Of a stretch of 64,000 nt of DNA, positions 17,170 through 45,766 are shown one piece after another. How positions within the stretch are numbered: the first letter of the stretch is position 1; every line of letters begins with the position of its first letter. A program made the translations under genes and the position numbers. Origin of the DNA: Rhodovulum bhavnagarense (GTDB lineage Bacteria > Pseudomonadota > Alphaproteobacteria > Rhodobacterales > Rhodobacteraceae); the NCBI RefSeq assembly GCF_004343505.1, contig NZ_SLXU01000003.1, forward strand, positions 1 through 64,000, written 5' to 3'. The notes under the pieces are model-generated. The model was not told the DNA's origin, did not search any database, and worked only from the letters and a program-made list of their open reading frames with translations.

Positions 17170-17179
17170 GGAGGACATC

Positions 17180-20131: not shown

Positions 20132-20443
20132 GTGGCTTCACGCAACGGGGCCGATGGTCCCGCTCCTTTCCTATAGGTGTCCTTGCAGGCAGGGGAACCC
20201 CCCTTCGCACGGCCCGGGCCGCGAGCCCGGTATGTCCCGTCTGCCCGCGTATTCCCGCACAGGGGCGCGGACCACCATGACTCAGATCAAGCATGAATGT
20301 CGCAGGGGCGGAGGCACCAGCCGAAAAAGACATCCCCCGATGTGGCGGTTTCCCTTGAGACCTGCGCGATCATCGGTGATAGTCGGGCGCCGCCGGACAC
20401 TAACGGCGGATATCAACGAAGCAGCTACCTGGGAGGGTACACT
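20132..20443. other. 312 bp intergenic region between divergent fpr and dctP
   Basis: No gene is supported here. It must hold the promoters of fpr and the dctPQM operon. I see a GC-rich hairpin around 20205-20240 but no clear sigma-54 GG/GC box or strong inverted repeat that I would call an operator. Confidence 0.4.
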
Positions 20444-21445: not shown

Positions 21446-21468
21446 GCCACTTGAAGGTGGTTAGAGGA

Positions 21469-21488
21469 GGCGGCCCCTTGGGGCCGCC
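21469..21488 (+). terminator. Intra-operon hairpin between dctP and dctQ
   Basis: Nine-base perfect stem GGCGGCCCC/GGGGCCGCC with a 2-base loop and no T run, in the 85 bp gap. In TRAP operons such hairpins attenuate transcription so that the binding protein is made in excess; they may also protect the upstream mRNA end. Confidence 0.65.
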
Positions 21489-21530
21489 ACCCGTCATTTC
21501 AGGATTCCGAAACAGTCAGGGAATAGCGGT

Positions 21531-22226
21531 ATGAGCGCAACGTATCGCCCGAAAACCGCGCTGGGGCGTGCCATCCATGTTTTCGAGGAAACAGTGATCG
21601 CCGCGCTTCTGGGGCTGATGGTGCTTGTTACCTTCGTGAATGTGGTGCTGCGCTATGTGTTCAACAGCGGGCTGATCTGGGGGCTGGAACTGACCCTGAT
21701 ACTGTTTGCCTGGCTGATTCTGTTCGGGATCGCCTACGGTTTCAAGATCACCATGCATCTGGGCGTTGATGCCGTGCTCAACATGGTGTCGCGAGGAACG
21801 AGGCGGGTGATGGCCATCATCGCGCTGGCGATCTGCCTCGTCTACGCGGTTTTGCTGATGAAGGGGGCCTATGATTACTGGGCGCCGTTCGCCAACCTGC
21901 CTCCGACGACCGGGCATTGGTTCCCGACCGGTTTCAAGGAAATGAAACCCTGGGACTACCGGGGCTATGTCCCGACCGAGCGGATTCCGATGCCCGAGAT
22001 CCTGCGCGCACCCCTTGAATTCCTGTTCCTGCCCGAGGGCGAGGATCCTTACGATAAACTTCCCGTTGCATTGCCTTACCTGATGATCCCCCTCGCGGTG
22101 GCATTGATGCTCGTCCGGCTTGTCGAGGCGGGCCTGCGTATCCTGCGTGGCACGCAGGAAAGCCTGATCGTCAGCCACGAGGCCGAAGATGCGGTCGAGG
22201 AAGTCGCCGCAAAGAAAGGCGCCTGA
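21531..22226 (+). CDS. dctQ: TRAP transporter small permease DctQ
   Basis: A 231-residue four-helix membrane subunit with the VVLRYVFNSGLIWGLEL motif of DctQ. It carries a ~65-residue hydrophilic insert (about 118-182, PPTTGHWFPTGF to PEGEDPYDKL) between helices 3 and 4, making it longer than the usual 160-180 residues; I know this long form from marine Rhodobacterales. It pairs with DctM, which starts 3 bp later. Confidence 0.92.
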   Translation: MSATYRPKTALGRAIHVFEETVIAALLGLMVLVTFVNVVLRYVFNSGLIWGLELTLILFAWLILFGIAYGFKITMHLGVDAVLNMVSRGTRRVMAIIALAICLVYAVLLMKGAYDYWAPFANLPPTTGHWFPTGFKEMKPWDYRGYVPTERIPMPEILRAPLEFLFLPEGEDPYDKLPVALPYLMIPLAVALMLVRLVEAGLRILRGTQESLIVSHEAEDAVEEVAAKKGA

Positions 22227-22229
22227 TCC

Positions 22230-32656: not shown

Positions 32657-33106
32657 ATGACCAAAGCCCCCACCACCACGCGCAAGCGCAGCACGACCAC
32701 GGTTCGCAAAGCTCCGGCCGCGGCGCGGAGTTCGGCGGCCGCCACGTCAAGGCCCGACCCCAACCCGACCGAGACCGCGATCATCGATGCACCCATTCCG
32801 GCACCGCAGATTGATGGCAACGAGTTGCGCAAGAACGACCTCGTAGACATGGTGGTCGAGACCTCGGGCATGAAAAAGAAGGACGTCAAGCCCGCTGTCG
32901 AGGCGATGCTTGCCGTGCTGGGTCAGGTGCTGTCGGATGGGCGGACGCTGAGCCTTCAGCCGCTGGGCAAGGTGATGGTCACCAACAAGAAAGACAAGGA
33001 TAACGGCGAGGTCCTGACCCTTCGTCTGCGACGTTCGCGCCAGTCCGCCGAGCAGGCTGCCGATGAGGTCAAAACCCCCCTTGCAGAGCCTTGCGAGGAC
33101 GGCTAA
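32657..33106 (+). CDS. HU-family DNA-binding protein with basic N-terminal tail
   Basis: A 149-residue protein. Residues ~1-50 are a T/A/R/P/K-rich tail (TKAPTTTRKRSTTTVRK) and ~55-130 are an HU/IHF fold (LRKNDLVDMVVETSG, then LQPLGKVMVTNKK, where a DNA-bending arm is expected). HU compacts DNA and lines up regulatory complexes. The basic tail makes it resemble the eukaryotic H1-like C-terminal tails of other bacteria, here placed at the N-terminus. Follows lon. Confidence 0.85.
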   Translation: MTKAPTTTRKRSTTTVRKAPAAARSSAAATSRPDPNPTETAIIDAPIPAPQIDGNELRKNDLVDMVVETSGMKKKDVKPAVEAMLAVLGQVLSDGRTLSLQPLGKVMVTNKKDKDNGEVLTLRLRRSRQSAEQAADEVKTPLAEPCEDG

Positions 33107-33118
33107 GAAGCGCGCCAC

Positions 33119-33193
33119 GGGTGATTAGCTCAGTGGTAGAGCGCTTCGTTCACATCGAAGATGTCGGGAGTTCGAATCTCTCATCACCCACCA
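33119..33193 (+). tRNA. tRNA-Val (CAC anticodon), CCA encoded
   Basis: Complete cloverleaf: acceptor GGGTGAT/ATCACCC, D stem GCTC/GAGC, anticodon stem CTTCG/CGAAG around TTCACAT (anticodon CAC), T arm GGGAG-TTCGAAT-CTCTC, then A and a genomically encoded CCA. Confidence 0.96.
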
Positions 33194-33340
33194 TTTTTCC
33201 TAGAAACACGTGGTTGTTACGTTTGTCTTGGCCGATGGCAAAGTCGGTTGCGACGCGTGGTGCATGAACTGGCCGTTTGGATCATACCCGGCCCCCCGAA
33301 CCGTCGGTGCCCTGCATCTGCGCAGAAAGACGATCGGGGC

Positions 33341-33370
33341 TTGCGCTTTGGGTGCGGGCCGGTCTAAACC
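33341..33370 (+). promoter_or_regulatory. Candidate promoter of the second tRNA-Val
   Basis: TTGCGC and TAAACC separated by 18 bp, with the -10 ending 11 bp before the tRNA, a spacing that fits a stable-RNA promoter. Moderate match to the sigma-70 consensus. Confidence 0.45.
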
Positions 33371-33380
33371 CCGCCTGTCA

Positions 33381-33456
33381 GGGCGATTAGCTCAGTTGGT
33401 AGAGCGCCTCGTTTACACCGAGGATGTCGGGAGTTCGAGTCTCTCATCGCCCACCA
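33381..33456 (+). tRNA. tRNA-Val (TAC anticodon), CCA encoded
   Basis: Cloverleaf: acceptor GGGCGAT/ATCGCCC, D arm GCTC-AGTTGGTA-GAGC, anticodon stem CCTCG/CGAGG around TTTACAC (TAC), T arm identical in style to the first tRNA-Val, and encoded CCA. The two valine tRNAs are 187 bp apart. The 157 bp that follow up to the lyase gene show nothing I can name. Confidence 0.96.
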
Positions 33457-33613
33457 GACCTTCAATGTCTTGTCCCGCTCTTGCTGGGGACTTTACGGTT
33501 CTCTGAACCCTGCGCGGTTTGGTTGCGTCCCCTGCAACCGCCGCGTGGCATCGATGCTTAGGTTGGAACCAGGGATATCTTGGCCGCGCTTGCAGCCGCC
33601 GGGCAGTATTGGC

Positions 33614-34510
33614 CTAAATGTCGCGATAGCGCCTTTCGAACTCCCACACATCGTCAAAGCCCATCAGCGCGCTGAAGGCGTTGAAATCTGCCAGCCGGTC
33701 CTGGACACCGACCGATGACCCCTCCGTGCGGATCGCGTCGTAGACCGTCTCCAGGGTCTTTGCCATGGCAAGGAACCCTGTCGCGGGATAGATCGCCAGG
33801 CGGTAGCCGATCCTTTCGAGATCTTCGCGCGGCAGGATCGGTGTCTTGCCGCCCTCGACCATGTTGGCGACCAGGGGCTTGTCGACGACCCGGCCGATAC
33901 GTTCCATCTGTTCGACAGTTTCCGGCGCCTCGACAAAGATGAGGTCGGCCCCTGCCTCGGCATAGGCTTCGGCGCGACGCAGCGCCTCGTCGATACCCAT
34001 AGACGAAAGCGCGTCGGTGCGCGCCACGATCAGAAAGTCAGGGTCGGACCGGGTGTCGACCGCGACCTTGATCTTGCGCACCATCTCTGCGCCCGGGATG
34101 ACGGGGCGGTTCGGGGTATGTCCACATTTCTTGGGAAATTCCTGATCTTCCAGTTGAATGCCCGCGACCCCGGCGGCTTCGTAGCCGCGCACGGTATGCG
34201 CGACGTTCAACAGGCCACCATAGCCGGTATCGCCATCGGCAATCAGCGCGGTACGCGTGCCATTGGCCATGGCCGATGCCCGGTTCAGCATGTCGCTATA
34301 GGTTGCCAGCCCTGCATCGGGCAGGCCCAGATATGACCCCACGGTGCCATAACCGGTCATGTAAAGGACATCGAATCCCATACGGTCGGCGATTTTGGCG
34401 GAAATCATCTCGAAAACGCCGGGGGCAGGTATCAGGCTATTCTGTGAGAGGCGGGCGCGCAGACCGCGCCGCTTTTCTTGAACGCTCGGGGTGTTACTTT
34501 CCTCGGCCAT
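33614..34510 (-). CDS. Isocitrate lyase/PEP mutase superfamily C-C lyase
   Basis: A 298-residue TIM-barrel enzyme. The metal/substrate segment is ADGDTGYGG and the catalytic loop is FPKKCGH (C129), the form found in 2-methylisocitrate lyase and 2,3-dimethylmalate lyase and used as general acid/base for retro-aldol cleavage. QLEDQ supplies the metal-site Glu/Asp. GGAGGG lies 7 bases before the ATG. It diverges from gntR. Likely substrates are branched hydroxy-di/tricarboxylates; oxaloacetate decarboxylase is a possible alternative. Confidence 0.85.
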   Translation of the reverse strand: MAEESNTPSVQEKRRGLRARLSQNSLIPAPGVFEMISAKIADRMGFDVLYMTGYGTVGSYLGLPDAGLATYSDMLNRASAMANGTRTALIADGDTGYGGLLNVAHTVRGYEAAGVAGIQLEDQEFPKKCGHTPNRPVIPGAEMVRKIKVAVDTRSDPDFLIVARTDALSSMGIDEALRRAEAYAEAGADLIFVEAPETVEQMERIGRVVDKPLVANMVEGGKTPILPREDLERIGYRLAIYPATGFLAMAKTLETVYDAIRTEGSSVGVQDRLADFNAFSALMGFDDVWEFERRYRDI

Positions 34511-34570
34511 GGATGCCCTCCGTAACTTGGACGAACTGAAATTTCTTGTCGGGGGATAGCATGCGTCCAT

Positions 34571-34582
34571 ATTGCATACAAT
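34571..34582. promoter_or_regulatory. Candidate GntR operator (lyase/gntR intergenic)
   Basis: ATTGCATACAAT is a 12-bp imperfect palindrome (10 of 12 positions pair) that fits the ATTGTATACAAT-like sites of FadR/FCD-subfamily GntR proteins. It lies between the lyase and gntR starts and shares ATTGYATAC with the site at 35385. Confidence 0.6.
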
Positions 34583-34606
34583 CCTGGCAGGGTAGAGGGA
34601 GGAACC

Positions 34607-35338
34607 ATGAAATCGGACAGGGCCGGCAGAGCCGCGGAAGAGCGCGGCCGAAAATTGAAACATGGCCATGCGGCGCGGCGCGCTTACACGATCATCCGCG
34701 ATGACCTGCTGCGCGATGCGTGGCCCAGCGGCACGCATCTGCCCGAGGCCGAACTTGCGCGGCGTATCGGCGTCAGCCGGACGCCAGTGCGGGATGCGTT
34801 GCGCATGCTCGTCAACGAGGGGTTCCTGGAATATTCGGCAAATGTCGGATGCCGCGTCCGCGGCTGGAGCGAGGACGAGATCGAATCACTTTTCGATTTG
34901 CGACTGGAGCTTGAATCCTATGCCGCGCGACGGGCGGCACAGCGGATGGACGACGTCGGCATACAAGAGCTGAACGCGCTGTGCGATCAAATGGAAAGTA
35001 TTGCTTTCAAAGTGTTAGATGTTCCGGCGCTACGTGATGACCTCACTCCGCTGAACGATGTCTTTCACATGCGGATCATTGATGCGGCGGCCAATCCCAG
35101 GCTTGCATCGCTGATCAAAAGCGTCACTGCCGCGCCAATCGTGCTGCGCACTTATCGTCGTTATGACGCGGACGAGGTTGCACGCAGCATGAACCATCAT
35201 CGCGAAATCGTCGCCGCGCTTGACGCGGGGCGCGGGGAATGGGCGGCGGCGGTGATGCGGGCGCATCTCCATGCCGGATATACGGCCATGCGCCGGGGAG
35301 GGGAAGGCAAGGTCGGTCCGATGTCGAGCGGCCGGTGA
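34607..35338 (+). CDS. GntR-family (FCD) transcriptional regulator
   Basis: A 243-residue regulator. The winged helix at ~25-95 contains ELARRIGVSRTPVRDALRML; the FCD ligand domain (~100-230) has the metal-site residues in NDVFHMRI (His), NHHREIVAAL (His) and RAHLHAG (His). FCD proteins usually sense organic acids. AGGGAGGAA precedes the ATG. It sits between the lyase and the first accessory TRAP operon, and the two matching palindromes suggest it represses both. Confidence 0.92.
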   Translation: MKSDRAGRAAEERGRKLKHGHAARRAYTIIRDDLLRDAWPSGTHLPEAELARRIGVSRTPVRDALRMLVNEGFLEYSANVGCRVRGWSEDEIESLFDLRLELESYAARRAAQRMDDVGIQELNALCDQMESIAFKVLDVPALRDDLTPLNDVFHMRIIDAAANPRLASLIKSVTAAPIVLRTYRRYDADEVARSMNHHREIVAALDAGRGEWAAAVMRAHLHAGYTAMRRGGEGKVGPMSSGR

Positions 35339-35370
35339 CAAGGGTGGGGCTATCTCGGGGTTCGCGGCAA

Positions 35371-35407
35371 TTGACGCATCAAAGATTGTATACTAGCGTT
35401 CTGATGC
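35371..35407 (+). promoter_or_regulatory. Promoter with overlapping GntR-type operator upstream of accessory dctP
   Basis: TTGACG (35371-35376) and TAGCGT (35394-35399) are separated by 17 bp. ATTGTATACTA (35385-35395) lies between and over the -10, and a wider inverted repeat GCATCA/TGATGC spans 35376-35407. The ATTGTATAC core matches the site at 34571, so repression by the adjacent GntR protein would be direct. Confidence 0.55.
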
Positions 35408-35478
35408 AACGCGCCACCTGACAGGCCGGCAAACGGTCGGGCGGATCGTGGCGGACTTAGACCCGGGAGGTAAGCACA

Positions 35479-36477
35479 ATGAATAACGTGGGACGGGGCG
35501 CCTTGGCCGCCCTTGCATTTTTCGCCGCGACCACTGGTACGGCACATGCGGAACGCACCCTCCGGCTGACCCTGCAAGTTCCGGTGAACCACCCGGTCGG
35601 CCAGAATATCGTGTTTTTCAAGGACCAGGTCGAAGAGGCCTCTGGCGGCGAGATAAAGATCGAGGTCTATGACTCTGCCCAACTCTATAAGGGTAGCGAA
35701 GTGCCCCAAGCGGTTGCATCGGGCGCCATCGACATGGGGTTGGTCCTGATCGACGAATATGCAGGCACTATTCCCGCGACCGGCCTGTTCAGCGTGGCCT
35801 TCATGTTCCCCGATTACGACGCCCTTGCACGCGCGGCCAATGCCGATAGCGCCGTGCGCCAGCAGATCGACGAGTTGATCCGCCAGACCGGTACGCGGGT
35901 GATGTGGTGGCAGGATTACGGGCCGGTGCAACTTCTGTCCAAGGACGCACCCCTGCTCAGCCCCGAAGACATGAAGGGCAAGAAGGTGCGCGTGCTGGGC
36001 AAGCCGTCGGGGGATTTCATCCAGGCCGTTGGCGGCGTGCCGGTCAAGATCGGTGGTTCTGAACAGTTCCTGGCCTATCAGCGCGGCACCGTCGATATCG
36101 GCATGACCGGCACGACCGCCATCGAATCGCGCAAGCTTTACGAAGTCATGGACTGGGTGACGATCACCAACCACGCCCAGACCGAATTCCTGGTCGTGAT
36201 GAACGACGCCACCTGGGACAAGATGAGCGAGGAAGAGCAGGGCTGGATGCGCCAGGCCGCACTGGCCGCCGAAGAAAAGATGCGCGCCGAGACCAAGGAC
36301 AAGAACCTGGCCTCCGAGGCTTTCATCGCCGAAAATACCGACATGCAGGTGCAGAACCTGACGGCTGAGCAGATTGCCGCATGGCAGGCGGCAGCCGCTC
36401 CCGCGGTCGATGCCTATATCGCGGCGGCCGGCGAGGAGGGGCGCAAACTCGTCGAGGCGGTTCGCGCCCTCAAATGA
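35479..36477 (+). CDS. TRAP transporter substrate-binding protein (accessory system 1)
   Basis: A 332-residue periplasmic protein with a Sec signal (about 1-24, ATTGTAHAE). DctP-family motifs: NHPVGQNIVFFKDQVEEAS, GKKVRVLGKPSG (ligand Arg in VRV) and LAYQRGTVDIGMTG. CGGGAGGTAAG precedes the ATG. It differs clearly from the DctP at 20444 and has W-rich segments (RVMWWQDYGPVQLL), so the ligand is probably different. Confidence 0.9.
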   Translation: MNNVGRGALAALAFFAATTGTAHAERTLRLTLQVPVNHPVGQNIVFFKDQVEEASGGEIKIEVYDSAQLYKGSEVPQAVASGAIDMGLVLIDEYAGTIPATGLFSVAFMFPDYDALARAANADSAVRQQIDELIRQTGTRVMWWQDYGPVQLLSKDAPLLSPEDMKGKKVRVLGKPSGDFIQAVGGVPVKIGGSEQFLAYQRGTVDIGMTGTTAIESRKLYEVMDWVTITNHAQTEFLVVMNDATWDKMSEEEQGWMRQAALAAEEKMRAETKDKNLASEAFIAENTDMQVQNLTAEQIAAWQAAAAPAVDAYIAAAGEEGRKLVEAVRALK

Positions 36478-36490
36478 TTGCGATCCTGCC

Positions 36491-37075
36491 GTGAACTCTA
36501 GACACCATGACAGGCCGGACCCCGCGGGGTCCGGTAATCCCATCCTTCGGGGGGTGGATGGCGTTTCCTATGCCTGCGCGAGGCTTGGCGAGGTCATGGT
36601 GGCCGCGATCGCCGCGATGCTGTGTTTCGAGGTCGCAGCTCGTTACCTTTTTAACTCTCCGACAATCTGGGCGCAGGATATCGCGGTCGTCTGCCAGGTC
36701 TGGTTCACCTATCTGGGGATGGCCTACGTGCTGCGCCAGCGCAGCCTCATCCGCATTACCGCACTTCTGGCGCTGGCTGGCCCGGCGCTGCGGCGCATCG
36801 CGGATGGCCTGGCGCTGCTCATCATTCTCGCCTTCAGCCTCGTGGCCGTGATCTATGGGTGGGACATCGTCGCAGACTCGATCCGCCTGGGCCGGCGTCA
36901 GCCGACCATGCTGGAATTGCCGAACTGGATCGCCGAACTTCCCGTCGTGGTCGGTTTCGCCTTGCTCGCGCTTCAGGCGCTGGCCGAACTGATCCGCCTG
37001 CCATTCGCGCCCGCGCCCGATTTCTCGCCCTCGGGTGAACATGCGCCAACACATGCCGGACCCCCGATCGAATGA
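36491..37075 (+). CDS. TRAP transporter small permease (accessory system 1)
   Basis: A DctQ-type four-helix membrane protein. From the GTG at 36491 it is 194 residues; the first membrane helix begins near GEVMVAAIAAMLCFEV, and GTG 36554 or ATG 36596 are alternatives since no strong ribosome site marks any of them. RYLFNSPTIWAQDIAVVCQVW is the expected family motif. Its stop overlaps the large permease start (ATGA). Confidence 0.85.
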   Translation: MNSRHHDRPDPAGSGNPILRGVDGVSYACARLGEVMVAAIAAMLCFEVAARYLFNSPTIWAQDIAVVCQVWFTYLGMAYVLRQRSLIRITALLALAGPALRRIADGLALLIILAFSLVAVIYGWDIVADSIRLGRRQPTMLELPNWIAELPVVVGFALLALQALAELIRLPFAPAPDFSPSGEHAPTHAGPPIE

Positions 37076-38346
37076 CGCTCGTCCTGGTCATCCTCGCACT
37101 TCTTGTGCTTTTGTTTATCGGTATTCCGGTCGCCTTCGCGCTGGCGGGATTGGGAACGGTCATGCTCGCGCTCAAGGGGTTGCCCCTTGTGATGGTCGCG
37201 CAGAACCTGCACGGGGCGATCGACAATTTCGTTCTCCTGTCGGTGCCCCTTTTCCTGTTGATGTCGAACATCCTGCTGAAGGGGGGGGTCGGGCGTGACC
37301 TGTTCGACGCGCTGCAAAGCTGGGTCGGACATTGGCCCGGCGGGCTTGGGATCGCGGCGCTTGCGTCTTGCGGCATATTCTCGGCCATATCGGGCAGCTC
37401 GGTTGCAACGGCGGCGACGGTGGCAACCGTTGCGGTGCCCGAAATGACCAGCCGCGGATATGGCAAGTCCTTCACGCTGGGGCTTCTTGCGGCGGGGGGC
37501 ACTCTGGGGATTCTGATCCCACCCTCGATCCCTCTGATCGTCTACGGTGTCATCACCGAGGAAAGCATCGGAAAGCTGTTCCTGGCGGGCATCGGCCCGG
37601 GGCTCGTGCTGATCGCGCTCTTTGCCATCTATTGCGTTGGTTATTCTTTCTTTTCAAAGGAGTACAAGCCCTCTGCAAAAGTCGGACGCGCGCAGCGCTG
37701 GCACGCGACAATGCGGGCGCTGCCCACCGGGGGGCTGGCCCTTCTGATGATCGGCGGCATCTATTCGGGTGTATTCACCCCGACCGAGGCATCGGCCGTC
37801 GGCGCGGTCTTTGCATTGGTCATCACCGCGCTGGTGCTGCGCTCGCTCAGTTGGGCGGGCTTCGTGCAGGCGCTGCGCGAGACAGTCACGACGACCATCG
37901 TGCTGTTCCTGATCGTGATCGGGGCCAAGATCTTTGGCAAAGCGGTGACCATCTACCAGGTGCCCGCCCAGATCTCGCAGTTGTTCGACACCCAGGTTCA
38001 GTCCGACCTCGGCTTTCTTCTGATCGTGGGCCTGATCCTTCTGTTCATCGGGCTGTTTCTTGAAAGCCTGTCCATGCTTTTGATCATGGTGCCGGTCCTG
38101 TTTCCCACGGTGCTATCTCTCGGGATCGACCCGATCTGGTTCGCGATGTATTTCGTGATCCTGATCGAGATCGCGCTGATCACTCCGCCCGTCGGGCTGA
38201 ACCTCTTCGTGATACAGGCTGTCGCGCGATCTTCGCTTGGGGCCGTCGCACGTGGTGTGCTGCCGTTTATCGGGTTGATGTTCCTTGCGCTTGTCCTGCT
38301 TTGGCTGCTGCCGGGGATCGTGACCTACATCCCCTACCGCCTTTAG
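37072..38346 (+). CDS. TRAP transporter large permease (accessory system 1)
   Basis: A 424-residue DctM-type permease with SGSSVATAATVATVAV, GGTLGILIPPSIPLIVYG and LITPPVGLNLFVIQ. It overlaps the small permease by 4 bp, showing tight coupling. The next gene, the CoA-transferase, starts after a 176 bp gap. Confidence 0.92.
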   Translation: MTLVLVILALLVLLFIGIPVAFALAGLGTVMLALKGLPLVMVAQNLHGAIDNFVLLSVPLFLLMSNILLKGGVGRDLFDALQSWVGHWPGGLGIAALASCGIFSAISGSSVATAATVATVAVPEMTSRGYGKSFTLGLLAAGGTLGILIPPSIPLIVYGVITEESIGKLFLAGIGPGLVLIALFAIYCVGYSFFSKEYKPSAKVGRAQRWHATMRALPTGGLALLMIGGIYSGVFTPTEASAVGAVFALVITALVLRSLSWAGFVQALRETVTTTIVLFLIVIGAKIFGKAVTIYQVPAQISQLFDTQVQSDLGFLLIVGLILLFIGLFLESLSMLLIMVPVLFPTVLSLGIDPIWFAMYFVILIEIALITPPVGLNLFVIQAVARSSLGAVARGVLPFIGLMFLALVLLWLLPGIVTYIPYRL

Positions 38347-38513
38347 ATCCGGTTCGGTCATGGCGCATCACGCATTCCATCTCCCTCGGTCCGGTTCCGA
38401 TCACAGCCTCCTGACAGGGCGCCCTTCGGCCTGCGAGCCGCGGATCGCGCGGGGAGTGCCGGCAGGGATCGGAGCCGAACCTGCCTGCACGAGGCAAGAG
38501 AAAGTTTGAAAGG

Positions 38514-38523
38514 TATGATATCA
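38514..38523. promoter_or_regulatory. Palindrome over the CoA-transferase start codon
   Basis: ATGATATCAT is a perfect 10-bp palindrome whose last base is the A of the start codon at 38523. The preceding 176 bp gap also holds a small stem TGCCT/AGGCA near 38490-38510 but no T run. Could be an operator; could be chance. Confidence 0.3.
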
Positions 38524-39716
38524 TGGGTCCGCTGAATTCTCTTCGCATCATAGAGCTTGGACAGTTGATCGCTGGTCCGTTCTGCGGCCAGGTGCTGGCC
38601 GATTTCGGCGCCGAGGTGATCAAGGTAGAGCCGCCAAAGGGGGGCGATCCGATGCGGCAATGGGGCCGCTCCGGCGAGGATGGCGCGCCGGTCTGGTGGT
38701 CGGTGATCGCGCGCGGCAAGCGGTCACTCACGCTGGATCTGCGCACCCCCGAAGGCCAGCAGGTGCTGCGCGACCTTGTTGCCACGGCCGATGTGCTGAT
38801 CGAGAATTTCCGGCCCGGCACGATGGAACGCTGGGGTCTGGGCTATGACGTTCTGTCCGAGATCAACCCGCGGCTGGTCATGGCGCGGGTCTCTGGGTTC
38901 GGGCAGGACGGGCCCTATGCGGATCGGGCGGGCTTTGCCTCGGTCTGCGAGGCGATGGGGGGATTGCGCTATCTCAGCGGCTATCCTGACCGCCCGCCGG
39001 TGCGGGTTGGCCTGTCGCTGGGCGACACCATGGCAGGGATGAATGCCGCGATGGGCGTTTTGCTGGCACTTCAGCGGCGGCACACCACGGGGCGCGGCCA
39101 GGTTGTAGACAGCTCGATCTACGAAAGTGTTCTGGGCCTGACCGAGGCGCTGATCGCCGAATACGACGCAGGCGGCCATATCCGCGAACGGCACGGATCA
39201 ACGCTGCCCGGTATCGCCCCCTCGAATGCCTATCCCACCGGTGACGGGCGCGAGATGATCATCGGCGCCAACCAAGACAACGTGTTCCGTCGCCTGTGCG
39301 AGGTGATGGGCACCCCCGAAATGGCTGACGACCCACGTTATGCCACCCATCGCGCCCGCGGCGAACATGCCGAGGAACTGGATGCACGCATCGCCGACTG
39401 GACCAGCCAGCATCCGGCCGACGAGATGATCTCTGCGCTGGCCGCGGCCGGCGTGCCGGTCGGGTTGGCTTATACCGCGCGCGAAATGATGGCAGATCCC
39501 CATTTCGCCGCGCGCGAGAGCATCGTGCGGGTGGAAGACCCGAAAAGCGGCAAGACACTGGCGATGCAGAACGTCTTTCCGCGCCTGTCCGAAAGTCCGG
39601 GTGCCGTCCGGGCGCTGGGCCCGGAACTGGGCGAGGCGACTGAAACGATCCTGCGCGACCTGCTGGGCTATACCGATGACAGGATCGCGATGCTGAGGGA
39701 CGCCGGCATCATCTGA
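38523..39716 (+). CDS. Class III CoA-transferase (CaiB/BaiF family)
   Basis: A 397-residue enzyme that moves CoA from one acyl-CoA to a carboxylic acid. N-terminal motif LRIIELGQLIAGPFCGQVLADFGAEVIKVE, ENFRPGTMERWGLGY in the middle, and the catalytic aspartate D196 in VVDSSIYES. It lies between two TRAP systems, so it probably activates an imported acid as its CoA ester before cleavage by the HMG-CoA-lyase-like enzyme at 42727. The ribosome site (AAAGG, ~9 bases away) is weak. Confidence 0.9.
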   Translation: MGPLNSLRIIELGQLIAGPFCGQVLADFGAEVIKVEPPKGGDPMRQWGRSGEDGAPVWWSVIARGKRSLTLDLRTPEGQQVLRDLVATADVLIENFRPGTMERWGLGYDVLSEINPRLVMARVSGFGQDGPYADRAGFASVCEAMGGLRYLSGYPDRPPVRVGLSLGDTMAGMNAAMGVLLALQRRHTTGRGQVVDSSIYESVLGLTEALIAEYDAGGHIRERHGSTLPGIAPSNAYPTGDGREMIIGANQDNVFRRLCEVMGTPEMADDPRYATHRARGEHAEELDARIADWTSQHPADEMISALAAAGVPVGLAYTAREMMADPHFAARESIVRVEDPKSGKTLAMQNVFPRLSESPGAVRALGPELGEATETILRDLLGYTDDRIAMLRDAGII

Positions 39717-39771
39717 CAGGGCACAGCGCGGGCGACAAGACCCGCCGCGGCCAACCAAAGGGAGGACAGAC

Positions 39772-39807
39772 ATGCACATCCCCAACGAGTGGCGCGGGCG
39801 CAGATGA
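39772..39807 (+). CDS. 11-codon mini-ORF coupled to TRAP permease
   Basis: ATG to TGA encoding MHIPNEWRGRR, with a strong AAAGGGAGGA site 6 bases before it, and its stop overlapping the dctM-type start (ATGA). The permease ATG itself has no ribosome site, so this mini-ORF may deliver ribosomes by coupling, or it may be the remnant of a lost gene. Confidence 0.5.
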   Translation: MHIPNEWRGRR

Positions 39808-41099
39808 TCGAGCCTGTCATTGTTGTCATCGTCCTGGTCGGCCTTATCGGCATCGGTGCACCGATCTTTCTGGCGCTGGGGGCCAGCGGTCTGCTGGGGC
39901 TGTGGATGGCGCGGGGGCCGCTGGCCTTTTTCTTTGCGCCGACATCTTTCTTCGGACAACTCAACTCGTTCGAATTGATTGCCCTGCCGCTGTTCATCCT
40001 GATGGGCAACCTGCTGGGGGCCACGCCGGTGGGGCAGAACCTGTTCCGTGCCGCCGCGCTGTGGCTGCAATGGCTGCGCGGCGGGCTGGCGATTTCCACC
40101 GTCGGGGCCTCGGCCGTCTTTGGCGCGGTTTCTGGCGTGTCGGTGGCAGGTGTGGCGGCCGTTGGCTCGATCGCGGTGCCCCAGATGCTGGAGCGTGGCT
40201 ATTCACGCGGGCTTGCGGCGGGGTCGGTGGCATCGTCCGGGGCGCTGGCCATGCTGATCCCGCCCTCGGTGCCATTCATCATCTATGGCGCGGTCTCGGG
40301 CGTCAGCGTCGGCGCGTTATTCATCGGGGGCATTCTGCCTGGCCTGTTGCTGGCGCTGGCGCTGGCCGTCTACATATATATCCGCGTGTCGCTTAATCCG
40401 GCCGAGGCGCCGCGCGAAACAGGCCCCATGCCGCCCTTGGGCGAACGGATGCGGGCGCTGGGCGGCATCTGGCATGCGCTGCTGCTGGTTTTCATCGTGC
40501 TGGGTGCGATCTATAGCGGCGTCGCTACACCATCCGAGGCCGCGGCGTTCGGGGCGGCGGGGGCCTTTGTTCTGGCCGCGGCCGTTTTTCGTGTGCTGAC
40601 CTGGCGCAAGACGATGGAGGTGCTGGCCAGTTCGGTTAAGATTTCCGGCGCGATCCTGCTGATCATCGGCTGTGCCAAGATCTTCGGCGACTATCTGAAT
40701 CTTGTCCGCGTGCCCGAAATCGTCACCGAGACGCTGACCCAGACGGCCCTGCCGGACTGGGCGATACTGCTGATCCTGATGCTGGCGCTTGTGCTTCTGG
40801 GTATGCTGGTGGATGCGGTGTCGCTGATCGTGGTGACCACGCCGATCCTGTTGCCGCTGATCACGACGATGGGCTACGATCCGCTGTGGTTCGGCATCAT
40901 CCTGGTTATGAACCTAGAAATCGCGGTCGTGACACCGCCGGTCGGGTTGAACCTGTATGCCCTGCGCGGCGTCTGCCCGATGCTGAGCGTCGAAGAGATC
41001 ATCCGCTCGGTGGTGCCGTTCATCTTCGTGCAGTTCTTCGTTCTGATGATCTTCGTGCTGTTCCCGGGGCTAAGCTTGTGGCTGCCTGGCCTGTTGTGA
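39804..41099 (+). CDS. TRAP transporter large permease (accessory system 2)
   Basis: A 431-residue DctM-type permease starting MIEPVIVVIVLVGLIGIG, with GVSVAGVAAVGSIAVPQM, SGALAMLIPPSVPFIIYG and VVTPPVGLNLYAL. In this system the order is M-P-Q, unlike the usual P-Q-M. An in-frame GTG at 39789 would add five residues. Translation is probably coupled to the 11-codon reading frame before it. Confidence 0.9.
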   Translation: MIEPVIVVIVLVGLIGIGAPIFLALGASGLLGLWMARGPLAFFFAPTSFFGQLNSFELIALPLFILMGNLLGATPVGQNLFRAAALWLQWLRGGLAISTVGASAVFGAVSGVSVAGVAAVGSIAVPQMLERGYSRGLAAGSVASSGALAMLIPPSVPFIIYGAVSGVSVGALFIGGILPGLLLALALAVYIYIRVSLNPAEAPRETGPMPPLGERMRALGGIWHALLLVFIVLGAIYSGVATPSEAAAFGAAGAFVLAAAVFRVLTWRKTMEVLASSVKISGAILLIIGCAKIFGDYLNLVRVPEIVTETLTQTALPDWAILLILMLALVLLGMLVDAVSLIVVTTPILLPLITTMGYDPLWFGIILVMNLEIAVVTPPVGLNLYALRGVCPMLSVEEIIRSVVPFIFVQFFVLMIFVLFPGLSLWLPGLL

Positions 41100-41151
41100 C
41101 TTGCCCCCAATAACAAGAAAGACAACCGTCATATCCTTGGAGGACAAACAC

Positions 41152-42186
41152 ATGACACAGACCCGCAGACACTTTCTGCAAACCGGCGCGGCCATGGCCG
41201 GCGGCACCGCCCTGCTTGGCCTTGGCGCCGGTCCCGCCCGTGCCGAGACCACGCTGACCGGCGTCAGCTACCTGCCGCCGAGCTACAAGGCGCTGTCCTA
41301 CGGTTCGGCCGGGTTCGTCGAGCGGCTGAATGCCAGCGATGCGGTGGCAGTCGACTATTACGACAGCGGCAAGCTGTTGAAGGCCGACGAGCAGTTGCCC
41401 GCCCTGCGCGCGGGCACCATCGACTTCATGTTCCACACCTCCAGCTACATCACCCGCTCGGTGCCGATCCTTGGCATCACCGGCCTGCCCGGCATCGTCG
41501 AGGCGCTCTACGAGAATCCTGGGCGGATCGCCAAGGGCAGCCCGCTGTTTGACCTGATCAACGCGGAACTGGCGAAGGAAGGTCTCTACATGGCCTCGAT
41601 GATGGGCAACATCCTTGAGCCGGAATATATCTGGTCGACCCAGGCGGCCCCGATCCACTCGATTGCGGAAATCTCGGGCAAGAAGGTGCGCGTGGTCAGC
41701 TTCGAGGCGACCAAGGTGATCGAGGACTTTGGCGGTGCCTCGGTGCGCGTGCCTTCCTCGGAACTGTATCTTGCGTTGCAGCGCAACACGGTGGACGCGG
41801 CAGTGGCCAACATCTCGACCATCATCGGCCGTTCGTTGCAAGAACAGATCGACTTTGTCTACAAGTTGCCGATGACCGGGTTCGGCATCGGCCTCTTCCT
41901 GACCACCAAGCGGTGGGACGGCCTTGGCACTGATGAAAAGGCGGCCTTTGACGAGGCGGCGGCCTGGTTCGACGAAAACGGCGCGGCCTATTCCAACAAC
42001 ACGATTTACCCCGACGAATTCTGGCCGATGATCGCGGCCGAGGGGATCGAGGTGATCGAGCCGTCCGCAGATGACTTGGCTGCGCTGGATGCCGCCGCGT
42101 CCGAGGTGCGCACGGCATGGATCAACGAGGTCGGCACCGAGATCGGCGAACGCGCGATCGCGCTGGCGCTGGGCGACGCGTCGTAA
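41152..42186 (+). CDS. TRAP transporter substrate-binding protein (accessory system 2), Tat-type signal
   Basis: A 344-residue binding protein. TRRHFLQTGAAMAGGTALLG is a twin-arginine signal, cleaved near GPARAE, so the protein may fold or bind a ligand before export. Mature motifs GKKVRVVSFEATK and LALQRNTVDAAVANIS are of the DctP fold but distant from the two other binding proteins here. TTGGAGGA precedes the ATG. Confidence 0.88.
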   Translation: MTQTRRHFLQTGAAMAGGTALLGLGAGPARAETTLTGVSYLPPSYKALSYGSAGFVERLNASDAVAVDYYDSGKLLKADEQLPALRAGTIDFMFHTSSYITRSVPILGITGLPGIVEALYENPGRIAKGSPLFDLINAELAKEGLYMASMMGNILEPEYIWSTQAAPIHSIAEISGKKVRVVSFEATKVIEDFGGASVRVPSSELYLALQRNTVDAAVANISTIIGRSLQEQIDFVYKLPMTGFGIGLFLTTKRWDGLGTDEKAAFDEAAAWFDENGAAYSNNTIYPDEFWPMIAAEGIEVIEPSADDLAALDAAASEVRTAWINEVGTEIGERAIALALGDAS

Positions 42187-42201
42187 GATCGGAGGGGTGC
42201 C

Positions 42202-42711
42202 GTGAGACAGGTTTTCCAAGGCGTGGGGCGGGGCCTTCGGGTCCTGGGGCAGCTTGTGCTGGCCTTCATGGTGGTGACCATCTGCTATGACGCGATCATG
42301 CGTTACGTCTTCACGGCACCCACCTCGTGGTCGCTCGAAATCAATACCTTCCTGATCATTTTCGTTGCCCTTCTCACGGCAGCGGATGCCCAGCGTAGCG
42401 ATAGTCATATCCGCATCACCTTTTTCTCGGACATGGCCGGGGCGGGGGGGCGGCGGGTCATACGCGCGCTGATCGGTCTGATCGGCGCGCTGTTCTGCGC
42501 CATCATGGCATGGCGCGGCTTTCTGTTGGCCTGGCAGGCGTGGGAGTATGGCGAGAGGGTCTCGTCAGGTTTCGGCACGCCCATGGTTCTGCCCTACGGA
42601 TTGTTGCCGGTCGGTTTCGGGATGCTGGCGGTTCAATTCCTGCTTGATGCGCTCGATGCGGCGTTCTGGCCTGACCGGCGTGGCGAGCGGGACGAAATTC
42701 AGAACATCTGA
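42202..42711 (+). CDS. TRAP transporter small permease (accessory system 2)
   Basis: A 169-residue DctQ-type protein with four helices, starting at GTG after GGAGGGG. The family motif is MRYVFTAPTSWSLEINTFL. It completes system 2 and is 15 bp before the lyase gene, so transport and the last catabolic step are cotranscribed. Confidence 0.88.
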   Translation: MRQVFQGVGRGLRVLGQLVLAFMVVTICYDAIMRYVFTAPTSWSLEINTFLIIFVALLTAADAQRSDSHIRITFFSDMAGAGGRRVIRALIGLIGALFCAIMAWRGFLLAWQAWEYGERVSSGFGTPMVLPYGLLPVGFGMLAVQFLLDALDAAFWPDRRGERDEIQNI

Positions 42712-42726
42712 CACGAGGGATATCCC

Positions 42727-43638
42727 ATGAAAGACATGCGCCCCATCATCTGCGAAGTGGCGCCGCGGGACGGCTTTCAGTCGATTGCTGCCCCGATCGC
42801 GACCGATGAAAAGATCGCCATCATCCTCGATCTGATCGCGGCGGGCTGTCCGCGGGTCGAGATCGGCAGTTTCGTCAGCCCCAGGGCCGTGCCGCAGATG
42901 GCCGACATGGCCGAGATCGCGGCTGCGGTCCGGGGGACGCCCGCGCGACTGTCGGCGCTGGTGCCCAATGTGCGCGGCGCCGAGAATGCGCTGGCCGCCG
43001 GTATCGATGAACTTGTCTACGTCTTTTCCGTGTCAGAGGCACATAACCGCAACAACGTGCGCCAAGGCGTGGACCAATCGCTGGAGGGGCTGGCGCAGGT
43101 TGCGGCCGCGCTGCCGGGTGAGGCGCGGCTGAGGGTTGCCGTCGCGACCGCGTTTGACTGCCCGTTCGAAGGCACGGTTCCCCAGGCGGCGGTGATCGAG
43201 GCGGTACGCCGCGTGGCCGTCCTGGTGCCCGGGGCAGAGATAGCGCTGTGCGACACGACCGGCCGGGCCAATCCGTTTGTCGTGGGTGAACGGTTCCGCG
43301 CCGCCATGGCCCTGCCTGAGACCGCGGCGAATGGATGGGCCTTTCATGGCCATGATACCTATGGACAGGGCGTGGCAAATGCACTTGCGGCCTGGGGCGC
43401 GGGTGTGTGTGTGTTCGATACCGCGGCGGCGGGGCTGGGCGGCTGTCCGTTTGCGCCTGGCGCAACCGGGAACACCGCGACCGAAGATCTGGTCTTTGCC
43501 TTCAACGAGGGGGGGCATGACACAGGTATCGACCTGCGCGCGCTGCTGGCGGTTGCTGACCGTATCGCGAATCTGCCCGGCGGTGTGACCGGCGGCCATC
43601 TGCGGATCGTACCGCGTGATCGCGCCGCGTTCGGGTGA
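42727..43638 (+). CDS. HMG-CoA-lyase-family enzyme
   Basis: A 303-residue TIM-barrel lyase. It has EVAPRDGFQS (catalytic Arg/Asp), the metal histidines in FHGHDTYGQG and the family signature GLGGCPFAPGATGN with the catalytic-loop cysteine. HMG-CoA lyase splits HMG-CoA into acetoacetate and acetyl-CoA; relatives act on other 3-hydroxy-3-methylacyl- or citramalyl-CoA esters. It closes the CaiB-TRAP operon, which favours a CoA ester formed from an imported acid over leucine breakdown. Confidence 0.88.
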   Translation: MKDMRPIICEVAPRDGFQSIAAPIATDEKIAIILDLIAAGCPRVEIGSFVSPRAVPQMADMAEIAAAVRGTPARLSALVPNVRGAENALAAGIDELVYVFSVSEAHNRNNVRQGVDQSLEGLAQVAAALPGEARLRVAVATAFDCPFEGTVPQAAVIEAVRRVAVLVPGAEIALCDTTGRANPFVVGERFRAAMALPETAANGWAFHGHDTYGQGVANALAAWGAGVCVFDTAAAGLGGCPFAPGATGNTATEDLVFAFNEGGHDTGIDLRALLAVADRIANLPGGVTGGHLRIVPRDRAAFG

Positions 43639-43872
43639 ACCGAGGCACGTGCATCGCCTGTCTGTTCTGCCCTGCGATCCCTGTGGTCCGCCTTGCATGT
43701 GCGCTCCAGCTTTGCGTCAACGGTGTGTTCCGTGGGGGGGCGCGCCACTGACCTGCGCGCGACAGCCTGCCAATTCTGCGCGCGAGGGCGCCGATGGTGG
43801 CCGCGTGGGCGTGGCGCGCCGTACGATGGTCGGCGGGTGGGAAAACACTTGAAAATTCGTGTGAGAGGGCGC

Positions 43873-43901
43873 TTGACGCCGTCGGAACCGGGGCCTAAAA
43901 G
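43873..43901 (+). promoter_or_regulatory. Promoter of the tRNA-Asp pair
   Basis: TTGACG and TAAAAG with a 17-bp spacer, 32 bp before the first tRNA-Asp. Close to the sigma-70 consensus and correctly spaced. The rest of 43639-43872 shows no gene I support. Confidence 0.75.
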
Positions 43902-43933
43902 GCACCTCACGCCGGGCAGACCCGGCAGGCGCT

Positions 43934-44010
43934 GCGGTTGTAGCTCAGTTGGTTAGAGTACCGGCCTGTCACGCCGGGGGTCGCGGGTTCGAGCCCCGTC
44001 AACCGCGCCA
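43934..44010 (+). tRNA. tRNA-Asp (GTC), copy 1, CCA encoded
   Basis: 77 nt cloverleaf: acceptor GCGGTTG/CAACCGC, anticodon stem CCGGC/GCCGG around CTGTCAC (GTC), T arm CGGGTTCGAGCCCCG region, discriminator G and encoded CCA. Confidence 0.97.
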
Positions 44011-44039
44011 TCGCCTGCCTGTTTCGTCCTGCGTCATGC

Positions 44040-44116
44040 GCGGTTGTAGCTCAGTTGGTTAGAGTACCGGCCTGTCACGCCGGGGGTCGCGGGTTCGAGC
44101 CCCGTCAACCGCGCCA
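44040..44116 (+). tRNA. tRNA-Asp (GTC), copy 2, CCA encoded
   Basis: Identical over all 77 bases to the copy at 43934, 29 bp downstream, and probably in the same transcript. A recent or gene-conversion-maintained duplication. Confidence 0.97.
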
Positions 44117-44142
44117 CTCCTTTTCCAAAGTCAGGGTGTGGA

Positions 44143-44373
44143 ATGTTGCGCATCGTTGACGAGATGCCGCTTTGGCTGGTCCTCTTGGCGGTGCTGAGTG
44201 TCGGGCTGGCCCCGTTCGCACCCGAACCACATGTATGGCAAAAACTCCGGATGTTGGCATCGGGCGATCTGCGCCGGGGAATAGACATCCTTGACCTGTG
44301 CCTGCACGGTACTCCGTGGCTGGTATTGCTGGCCAAGCTGGGGCGCTTGGCCTTCCTTGCGTCGCGCCGCTGA
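44143..44373 (+). CDS. Small membrane protein (76 aa), unknown role
   Basis: A 76-residue protein with a hydrophobic N-terminal helix (~9-26, LWLVLLAVLSVGLAPF), a central basic and charged segment with KLRMLASGDLRRGIDILDL, and a second hydrophobic stretch (~57-70). Similar small proteins are widespread in Rhodobacterales and are often labelled 'RND transporter', for which I see no basis in the sequence. It sits 26 bp after tRNA-Asp. Confidence 0.6.
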   Translation: MLRIVDEMPLWLVLLAVLSVGLAPFAPEPHVWQKLRMLASGDLRRGIDILDLCLHGTPWLVLLAKLGRLAFLASRR

Positions 44374-44392
44374 GCGCGGCGCGGGCTGGCGT

Positions 44393-45766
44393 TCAGGCCG
44401 ACAGCGCAGCAAGGATTCGGGCCCAACTGCGAATTCCGCGGTGAAAGCTGGAGAGATCGTATTTTTCGTTCGGCGAATGGATCGCGTCGTCATCCTTGCC
44501 GAATCCGATCAACATCGATTCCATCCCGAGGATCTGCTTGAAATGGCCTGCCACGGGGATCGAGCCGCCGCAGCCCACGAAAGCCGCGGGTTTCGGCCAT
44601 TCGGCGGAGAGCGCGGCGCGCGCCTTTTCGAAGGCGGGATCGTCGATCGACATCCGTGCCGCGCGGGACGCGCCATGCTCGGCAAAGTCCGCCGTGCAAT
44701 CGGGCGGCAGCATATCGCGCACCATCTTTCGGAACGAGCGTCGGATCTCCAGCGGGTCCTGGTCGCCGACAAGGCGGAAACTGATCTTGGCTGACGCCTT
44801 CGAGGGCAGCACCGTCTTGAACCCAGCCCCCGTATATCCACCCTGGATGCCGTTGACTTCGCAGGTGGGGCGCGACCAGATCATTTCCAGCGCCGTGCGG
44901 TCGGTCTCCCCGGCCGGGGTGGACAGCCCGACCTCGCCCAGGAATTGCCCCGCATCGAAGTTCAGGTCGTGCCACTGCTGCGCCACGGTTTCGGGCAACT
45001 CGGGCACACCGTCGTAAAAGCCGGGAACCGTCACTCGGCCGGTCTCGTCATGCAGTGCCGCGATCACATTCGTCAGAACCCGGATCGGGTTCATCGCAGG
45101 GCCGCCATACATGCCCGAGTGCAAATCCTTTGATGGGCCCGTGATCGTGACCTCTTCGCCCAGAAGTCCGCGCAGCATCGTCACGATGGCGGGGCGGTCC
45201 TCGCCGAAAAGGCCGGTGTCGCAGATCAGCGCGATATCGGCGCGCAGCTCGGCCCGATTCTGTTCGAGGAAAGGCACCAGCGAGGGCGAGCCCGATTCCT
45301 CTTCGCCCTCGAAAAACATCGTGATCCGGGCGGGCAGGGTGCCGTGGACCGCCAGCCATGCGCGGCAAGCCTCGACAAAGGTCATCAACTGCCCCTTGTC
45401 GTCGCTGGCCCCACGAGCGCGGATCACGCGCCCCTTGGACGTATCCTCGATTGCCGGATCAAAGGGATCGCGTGCCCACAAATCCAGCGGGTCCACCGGC
45501 TGCACGTCGTAATGCCCGTAAAACAGCAGGTTGGGCCCCGCATCGCCCCCCTTGCCCACGACCATCGGATGCCCGGCCGTTGCACGGGTTGCGGCATCAA
45601 GGCCCATGCTGCGCAGATCCCGCGCAAGCCAATCGGCGGCACGGGCGCAGTCGTCGGCATGGGCGGGATCAGTGGAAATCGAGGCGATTCGCAGCAGCGC
45701 CATCAGGCGTTCGGTCGCCTGCGGCAGATCGGCATCGATTCGGGACAGCACGGCATCGAGGGGCAT
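44393..45766 (-). CDS. M20-family metallopeptidase (dipeptidase-like)
   Basis: A 457-residue zinc peptidase. Metal-ligand motifs in order: GHYDVQP (His, Asp), GASDDKGQ (bridging Asp), EGEEESGS (catalytic Glu pair), CDTGLF (Asp) and a late HSPNEKY (His). The dimerisation lid lies at ~200-370. M20 enzymes of this length hydrolyse dipeptides or acylated amino acids; the exact substrate is not evident. It is leftward and monocistronic. Confidence 0.9.
   Translation of the reverse strand: MPLDAVLSRIDADLPQATERLMALLRIASISTDPAHADDCARAADWLARDLRSMGLDAATRATAGHPMVVGKGGDAGPNLLFYGHYDVQPVDPLDLWARDPFDPAIEDTSKGRVIRARGASDDKGQLMTFVEACRAWLAVHGTLPARITMFFEGEEESGSPSLVPFLEQNRAELRADIALICDTGLFGEDRPAIVTMLRGLLGEEVTITGPSKDLHSGMYGGPAMNPIRVLTNVIAALHDETGRVTVPGFYDGVPELPETVAQQWHDLNFDAGQFLGEVGLSTPAGETDRTALEMIWSRPTCEVNGIQGGYTGAGFKTVLPSKASAKISFRLVGDQDPLEIRRSFRKMVRDMLPPDCTADFAEHGASRAARMSIDDPAFEKARAALSAEWPKPAAFVGCGGSIPVAGHFKQILGMESMLIGFGKDDDAIHSPNEKYDLSSFHRGIRSWARILAALSA

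Follow-up and report, generated by a model that had tools for sequence, protein, structure and literature searches.

Which acids would a cell import and cleave with two tripartite ATP-independent periplasmic (TRAP) transport systems, a CoA-transferase and two carbon-carbon lyases encoded side by side? The question is raised by a ten-gene block at positions 33614-43638 of a 64,000-nucleotide stretch of Rhodovulum bhavnagarense DNA (contig NZ_SLXU01000003.1), the whole of which we call the window. The block is genuine: families, orders and places were confirmed, each of the ten genes having a Pfam family above the curated cut-off (PEP_mutase/ICL, GntR plus FCD, DctP, DctQ, DctM, CoA_transf_3, DctM, DctP, DctQ and HMGL-like). 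It consists of two separable modules rather than one unit. Module A is made up of a lyase of the phosphoenolpyruvate (PEP) mutase/isocitrate lyase (ICL) superfamily, a GntR/FCD regulator and TRAP system 1 in the order P-Q-M, and module B of a CaiB/BaiF-type CoA-transferase, TRAP system 2 in the order M-P-Q and a lyase of the 3-hydroxy-3-methylglutaryl-CoA (HMG-CoA) lyase-like (HMGL) type. Our answer, to which we give an even chance of being right, is that the block is an accessory two-module cassette for C4-C6 diacids that carry an (R)-2-hydroxy group and mostly a 2-alkyl group as well, (R)-citramalate being the foremost candidate; that chance rests mainly on module B.

The PEP-mutase/ICL-type lyase gene lies on the minus strand and the GntR/FCD, P1-Q1-M1, CaiB, M2-P2-Q2 and HMGL genes on the plus strand. 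A prior sequence-only reading of the window had named the same ten genes, all of which were found and assigned Pfam families, and had correctly given the two TRAP gene orders and noted that the first two genes diverge while all others run the same way; the motifs KKCGH and GGCPFAPGATGN that it quoted were both located in window proteins. One gene call had to be changed, in that the minus-strand lyase had been read as an open reading frame (ORF) at 33614-34738, which overlaps the GntR gene, whereas the conserved protein begins at 34510 (298 residues).

The module B lyase (42727-43638, plus strand; Pfam 125 bits) keeps the R, D, H, H, C, N set of the HMGL family, residues which we take to have catalytic roles, when aligned with the human, Pseudomonas aeruginosa and Bacillus subtilis lyases. 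By its sequence it differs from standard HMG-CoA lyases, falling outside their clade and lacking their motifs: it has RDGFQSI in place of RDGLQNE, PRA in place of PKW and CDTTGRAN in place of human GDTIGVGT. The three reference enzymes, and a second copy in the same genome, have RDGLQNE and GDTIG together with SPKW, which reads HPKW in B. subtilis. Matches shorter than 220 residues were dropped before this family was aligned and L037 was left out as a repeat; L077, L038 and L039 were likewise omitted as repeats from the 77-row tree, and L119 repeats L004. In that tree a single clade (Shimodaira-Hasegawa-like approximate likelihood ratio test 91, under the starred level) holds 37 of the 38 rows having R or K after CDTTG or its counterpart and A or L at the Trp position. 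The thirty-eighth row (L061) falls outside this CDTTG[RK] clade, as do the three reference lyases and the second copy in the host genome (G000:C19).

These results bear on 3-hydroxy-3-methylglutarate, which the sequence-only reading had put first among its candidates. On that view the cell would take up this acid and convert it to its CoA ester, from which a true HMG-CoA lyase would release acetoacetate and acetyl-CoA. The window lyase does pass the cut-off of the HMG-CoA-lyase model NF004283 (264.7 bits against 246), a broad subfamily model, and the CaiB protein is similar to 9br7, a solved enzyme bearing the name succinate-hydroxymethylglutarate CoA-transferase (223 bits, behind 4ed9 at 258 bits and a formyl-CoA transferase at 243 bits). 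However, the second copy scores 459.7 bits on the same model and neighbours acyl-CoA dehydrogenase and biotin carboxylase genes and, by eye, an enoyl-CoA-hydratase-like ORF, a locus that looks like a leucine operon; it is a separate HMG-CoA lyase of the genome. Given this separate enzyme, and a window lyase that lies outside the known clade and is devoid of RDGLQNE, PKW and GDTIG, we consider the 3-hydroxy-3-methylglutarate route improbable and disfavour that acid as a substrate. Citramalate and dimethylmalate, the other candidates put forward, fit well.

What argues for citramalate is first the geometry of the reaction. HMGLs with a TIM barrel cleave (S)-HMG-CoA, whereas (S)-citramalyl-CoA is the counterpart of (R)-HMG-CoA (PMC6689899); (R)-citramalyl-CoA would therefore be the spatial equivalent of (S)-HMG-CoA and a substrate suited to the HMGL fold. 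The CaiB protein (38523-39716, plus strand) has a CoA_transf_3 domain at 439 bits and a GD motif with Asp168, presumably the catalytic aspartate, features that place it among the class III CoA-transferases. It misses the NCBIfam equivalogs for succinate-glutarate (300 bits, cut-off 750) and succinyl-CoA:mesaconate (271 bits, cut-off 700) transfer. Second, the two reactions form a numbered pair, EC 2.8.3.20 (K18313) being succinyl-CoA:(R)-malate/(R)-citramalate CoA-transferase and EC 4.1.3.46 (K18314) (R)-citramalyl-CoA lyase (PMC8307300). Module B most likely would load CoA onto (R)-citramalate and cleave the resulting (R)-citramalyl-CoA, an assignment made because of the placement of its lyase in the CDTTG[RK] clade, the CaiB, hydratase and gentisate genes that neighbour that clade, the stereochemistry of HMGLs and the EC-numbered reaction pair.

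The proposed route would begin with TRAP 2 importing the (R)-hydroxy diacid. CaiB would then transfer CoA to it from a donor such as succinyl-CoA, and the HMGL-type lyase would cut the ester to acetyl-CoA plus a 2-oxo acid (pyruvate from citramalyl-CoA, or glyoxylate if the ester is (R)-malyl-CoA). Both TRAP systems are complete, with DctP, DctQ and DctM subunits; those of system 2 are encoded on the plus strand at 39789-41099 (M2, Pfam 308 bits), 41152-42186 (P2, 91 bits) and 42202-42711 (Q2, 104 bits). Both solute-binding proteins, P1 and P2, retain the invariant Arg at the carboxylate-binding place of this protein type, a residue that we assume binds the carboxylate. In P2 the N-terminal RR, presumably a twin-arginine (Tat) signal, and Arg180 are invariant in 11 sequences, and the predicted model of the protein (predicted local distance difference test score, pLDDT, 77) matches TRAP solute-binding structures. 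The earlier outline of acid-type importers, a class III CoA-transferase and a CoA-ester lyase is borne out, with the carboxylate Arg invariant in both binding proteins. Taurine or sugar uptake as the main role was rejected on gene content alone.

The neighbourhoods of the CDTTG[RK] clade were read in 34 loci, the window being uncounted and the near-copy pairs L013/L014, L016/L017 and L025/L026 included. Pairing with a class III CoA-transferase gene, as expected of an (R)-citramalyl-CoA lyase gene, was found in the window and in 31 of the 34, where the CaiB-type gene lies within 5 kb of the lyase gene. A LeuCD or aconitase-family hydratase gene occurs within 8 kb in five loci, and in five others gentisate dioxygenase genes, maleylpyruvate-hydrolase-like genes or both lie no more than 10 kb away; the marker genes were drawn from L012, L068, L076 and others, and these three are therefore counted by construction. 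LeuCD-type hydratases convert maleate-type diacids to (R)-2-hydroxy diacids, and on a Sphingobium plasmid the order CaiB-HMGL-LeuC-LeuD is consecutive. Plasmid neighbourhoods were read for 10 of 70 listed match rows (H1, H3, H4, H8, H10 and H18 for the HMGL; H31, H42 and H50 for the module A lyase; H51 for CaiB), and a CoA-transferase gene adjoins the annotated 'hydroxymethylglutaryl-CoA lyase' in all seven plasmid regions read that have such a gene. L106 carries, in a single stretch, HMGL, GntR and CaiB genes (the last 59% identical to the window's), M1-Q1-P1, LeuC-like and LeuD/DmdB-like genes and an ICL-type lyase gene. A Skermanella plasmid (L074) has two distinct CaiB/HMGL pairs no more than about 8 kb apart.

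Pairs of CaiB and HMGL genes also lie within gentisate or polycyclic aromatic hydrocarbon (PAH) clusters at L025, L026, L067, L075 and L076, and these may be a so far unassigned end of the gentisate route. In a PAH cluster of Sagittula MA-2 (Roseobacteraceae), NagKL-like genes stand on one side of an HMGL/acyl-CoA transferase pair and an HbzF-like gene on the other. The pair is thus set among gentisate genes, the adjoining gene is 57% identical to the HbzF maleylpyruvate hydrolase, and PMC11705938 (Table 1) classes the HMGL/CoA-transferase pair as unrelated to known aromatic-degrading enzymes.

The gentisate association raises (R)-malate (D-malate) as the main substrate of module B, in which case D-malyl-CoA would be cleaved to acetyl-CoA and glyoxylate. 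Maleate, the product of maleylpyruvate hydrolase, hydrates to D-malate, and the lyase clade occurs in gentisate clusters with maleylpyruvate-hydrolase-like genes. Moreover, a tartrate-dehydrogenase-family gene adjoins the HMGL gene at L010 (573 bits, cut-off 470), and EC 2.8.3.20 is named for both (R)-malate and (R)-citramalate. On the other hand, direct oxidation of D-malate would be simpler, and methylated gentisates would yield citraconate and citramalate. We regard D-malate as a serious alternative, if a rather unlikely one. A second alternative, that CaiB makes a citryl-CoA-type ester from a tricarboxylate (aconitate or citrate) which the HMGL splits to acetyl-CoA and oxaloacetate, draws on the hydratases of L012 and L120, where an aconitase-family gene sits between Q2 and HMGL, and of L015, where it lies upstream of CaiB; the L012 protein passes the aconitate hydratase equivalog (813 bits, cut-off 612). 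Cells can degrade aconitate and citrate without such a cassette, however, and the sister clade is found with gentisate genes and LeuCD. We therefore think tricarboxylates quite improbable and, like 3-hydroxy-3-methylglutarate, disfavour them as substrates.

A wider version of the citramalate assignment is that the CDTTG[RK] lyase clade and its CaiB partner serve generally as a lyase system for (R)-malyl-CoA and (R)-citramalyl-CoA. This system would be an undescribed end of gentisate-type ring cleavage, in which maleate or citraconate goes to the (R)-hydroxy acid and then to acetyl-CoA plus glyoxylate or pyruvate. In Alphaproteobacteria such as Ruegeria, Sulfitobacter, Aurantimonas and the window's host it would have been repackaged with a dedicated TRAP importer that scavenges such acids from the surroundings. 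We offer this version tentatively, as well short of probable.

Module A, the weaker half of the proposal, would let TRAP 1 bring in a related acid for a lyase that cleaves free 2-alkylmalate without CoA. The lyase gene (33614-34510, minus strand; Pfam PF13714, 141 bits) has as the five best Protein Data Bank (PDB) matches of its product four methylisocitrate lyases and the petal death protein, at 205 to 193 bits. The petal death protein (1zlp, 201 bits) aligns over 17-297, whereas the other four end at 267-278, and the FVEAP and ANM.EGG motifs of the module A enzyme are like those of the petal death protein and unlike PrpB. The petal death protein is a 2-alkylmalate lyase whose substrates include citramalate. 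The module A enzyme appears closer to it than to PrpB and is a probable 2-alkylmalate lyase. Relatives at 54-65% identity (L070, L071, L106) have LeuCD-type genes as neighbours or a few kb away. That module A is instead a 2-methylisocitrate lyase of the methylcitrate cycle with an importer is suggested by the PrpB-type structures among the best matches and by the prpB model TIGR02317, on which the protein scores 271 bits. It misses the cut-off of that model (354), its C-terminus and FVEAP/EGG motifs are unlike PrpB, and by Pfam none of the ten genes of the block is of the prpC or prpD type. On these grounds a methylcitrate-cycle role was rejected as very unlikely. The C-terminus counts as evidence against PrpB but is not specific to the petal death protein, because weaker matches of other function (oxaloacetate acetylhydrolase, the PEP phosphomutase 5unc and phosphonopyruvate hydrolase) also reach 291-295.

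The remaining module A transporter genes are all on the plus strand. P1 lies at 35479-36477 (Pfam 203 bits; best PDB sequence match 4ovs), Q1 at 36491-37075 with an estimated, approximate start (99 bits) and M1 at 37072-38346 (356 bits).

Several results weigh against the (R)-2-hydroxy diacid cassette. The window HMGL is, as noted, above a cut-off for HMG-CoA lyases. There is no hydratase gene in the block and only two aconitase-family genes in the whole genome. Among the clade loci, 24 of 34 have no hydratase or gentisate markers in the stretch examined, several have uninformative neighbours (Gfo/Idh, Nramp, MFS), and the score of the L012 hydratase leaves a tricarboxylate possible. The HMGL of L106 falls in another clade of the tree. 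For module A, the weaker matches just mentioned share the long C-terminus, and its relatives at 62-74% identity (L013, L014, L105, L072) have no LeuCD marker. The importers do not settle the matter, since a fold search with the P2 model fixes no ligand (lactate, isethionate, aromatic-acid, sialic-acid and pyroglutamate binders match alike) and the P1 model, built from three sequences, had a pLDDT of 42 and went unused.

Do the two modules belong together? The genome searches were samples, and the class-level searches with P1 and P2 scored at most five candidates per genome. The 33 loci with HMGL relatives were found via short peptides of the window HMGL, and its motifs (for example TAFDCPFE) are favoured among them. 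The gene association of module B goes beyond chance, because the order CaiB-M2-P2-Q2-HMGL recurs in 10 of these 33 loci (L004-L008, L011-L015) and also in L120 (G170, same family). Module A stands directly upstream, as in the window, in two of the ten, L013 (Aurantimonas) and L014 (a Fulvimarina metagenome-assembled genome), whereas the other eight have module B without A within the few kb of flank before CaiB. Module B is rare: a near-ortholog of the HMGL (77-80% identity) occurs in two of 197 other family genomes sampled, the next best match being at 49%; P2 was found at E<=1e-60 in none of the 384 further class genomes that were sampled; and CaiB at E<=1e-150 in two of 15 other genus genomes, both at 57% identity. 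P1-type TRAP systems are commoner, being present at E<=1e-70 in 26 of 385 class genomes (own included), and at least 17 of these 26, again with its own, have an ICL-superfamily lyase gene near the TRAP genes, an association that favours the proposed cassette. In the 25 other genomes the P1 stretches were read up to 20 kb in 16 and over about 4 kb in the rest, and the nearby lyase is 34-47% identical to the window's in 14 of the 16 that have one. Even two genomes of about 1.2 Mb (L117, L118) keep a P1-like TRAP system adjoining a PEP-mutase/ICL-superfamily lyase (34% identity).

The separability of the modules, and the lyase that module A has of its own, lend no support to the proposal that two imported substrates converge on one route. 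Two unrelated cassettes might also share an insertion hotspot at tRNA genes, which would make adjacency uninformative on shared substrates. The eight module B loci without A and the other cargo that congeners carry at the same site are what this explanation would predict, but A adjoins B in Aurantimonas and Fulvimarina also, and L106 unites TRAP 1, LeuCD, an ICL-type lyase, CaiB and HMGL. We hold the hotspot explanation to be possible, at clearly less than an even chance.

The site itself is bounded by tRNA genes that ARAGORN places on the plus strand, tRNA-Val (tac) at 33381-33456 on the left and tandem tRNA-Asp at 43934-44116 on the right, with a tRNA-Val (cac) at 33119-33193 beyond the left edge. 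The flanking Lon and M20-peptidase genes are no more than about 15 kb apart in seven of 15 congeners, and in all seven the interval from the same tRNA-Val (tac) to tRNA-Asp holds an ORF of 565-610 residues, of which the one tested is an adenine deaminase (TIGR01178, 594 bits, cut-off 472.5). In the other eight, Lon and M20-peptidase genes are far apart or on separate contigs; G580, the sole one of these that was read, has tRNA-Val and, in the stretches taken, no tRNA-Asp. Within the genus the cargo between tRNA-Val and tRNA-Asp varies, as a comparison of the seven congeners with the window shows. In one congener (G593; L140 1077-11518) about 10 kb of other cargo lies between two tRNA-Val genes beside the equivalent site. 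Pfam found no integrase among the ten genes of the block, and in GC content the block (63.1%) hardly differs from the remainder of the window (63.5%). A search for near-identical plasmid DNA gave 21 records, none covering 80% of the block; the ten records listed match over 7% (in CaiB), over 2%, or over 57-58 bases at the tRNA-Val end.

The GntR/FCD regulator (34607-35338, plus strand; FCD 79.9 bits, GntR 54 bits) would act at sites in its own divergent promoter and before P1. These operator-like sites were picked after inspection of the sequence. The first, the palindrome ATTGCATACAAT at 34571-34582, is the only exact match in the 64 kb, where 0.03 would be expected; the second, at 35385-35396 upstream of P1, is a weaker copy with two mismatches, and such matches occur at chance level (10 found, 14.6 expected). 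That the GntR of module A controls that module is plausible because L105 has TTGTATACAA and TTGCATACAA at the equivalent two places, in the divergent promoter and before P1 (where TTGCATACAA is exact). In L013 and L014 a second, divergent GntR gene lies between M1 and CaiB, with TTGGATACAA before CaiB, and a site of the form TTGNATNCAA is upstream of CaiB in 6 of 11 loci examined. The window has neither a second GntR gene in its 176-bp M1-CaiB gap nor a TTGNATNCAA-type site before CaiB. A GntR gene lies right by module B in six of the ten module B loci (L008, L011-L015). Hence, of the earlier idea of one GntR regulator over the whole block, what stands is that the block has only one; the operator-like sites are at module A promoters only, and relatives have GntR genes by module B. 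An imperfect inverted repeat seen by eye at 38380-38490, inside the M1-CaiB gap, may be an attenuator. Predicted promoters and terminators in 33000-44500 numbered 2 and 10, with 1.9 and 8.9 expected.

Elsewhere in the window, 13152-17968 encodes XdhC-like and molybdopterin hydroxylase proteins of the aldehyde/xanthine dehydrogenase superfamily (Pfam at 13152-14135 and 14803-17166), and 20297-23624 a third TRAP system (DctP 345 bits, DctQ 82 bits, the M subunit read as an ORF only).

The sequence-only reading knew of no published pathway with this gene set. That holds in part: the transferase and lyase chemistry has EC and KEGG numbers (PMC8307300), and the full gene set was not found in searches of open-licence papers. 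Nor did those searches turn up known chemistry packaged in this way, together with dedicated TRAP importers and a second lyase that would work without CoA; the packaging looks new. If the proposal is correct, the annotated 'hydroxymethylglutaryl-CoA lyase' genes that fall in the CDTTG[RK] clade carry a wrong name, for which the motif offers a quick test; the islands would show how bacteria obtain (R)-citramalate, D-malate and alkylmalates; and missing last steps would be supplied for PAH/gentisate clusters that leave both genes unassigned, as in Table 1 of PMC11705938. The block looks like a swappable kit by which small branched hydroxy diacids, most likely citramalate-like, would be imported and cut to feed central metabolism.

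How does the block compare with known systems? Its HMGL shares family and catalytic residues with the HMG-CoA lyases (HMGCL, P. aeruginosa 2ftp, B. subtilis 1ydo) and differs from them in clade and in the RDGLQNE, PKW and GDTIG motifs, which are absent from the window enzyme. The module A lyase has FVEAP, ANM.EGG and KKCGH in common with the petal death protein 1zlp, whereas a pocket segment reads IYPATGF in the former and AHSLTAV in the latter; 2,3-dimethylmalate lyase 3fa3 matches it at 160 bits. Itaconate degradation was considered as a role for the block and rejected. The itaconate/methylsuccinate cluster of pseudomonads (ict-ich-ccl) follows the same logic of a CoA-transferase and a citramalyl-CoA lyase (PMC12290011). 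That cluster acts on (S)-citramalyl-CoA, however, and the window block has no hydratase-family gene among its ten. A close likeness in predicted reactions is that to the EC-numbered pair of Chloroflexus aurantiacus. A class III CoA-transferase and an HMGL-type lyase reportedly form the pair there, which Friedmann is said to have described in 2006 and 2007. The predicted chemistry and enzyme pairing of module B are the same, but the Chloroflexus pair is tied to the 3-hydroxypropionate cycle, whereas module B stands in an operon with a TRAP importer.

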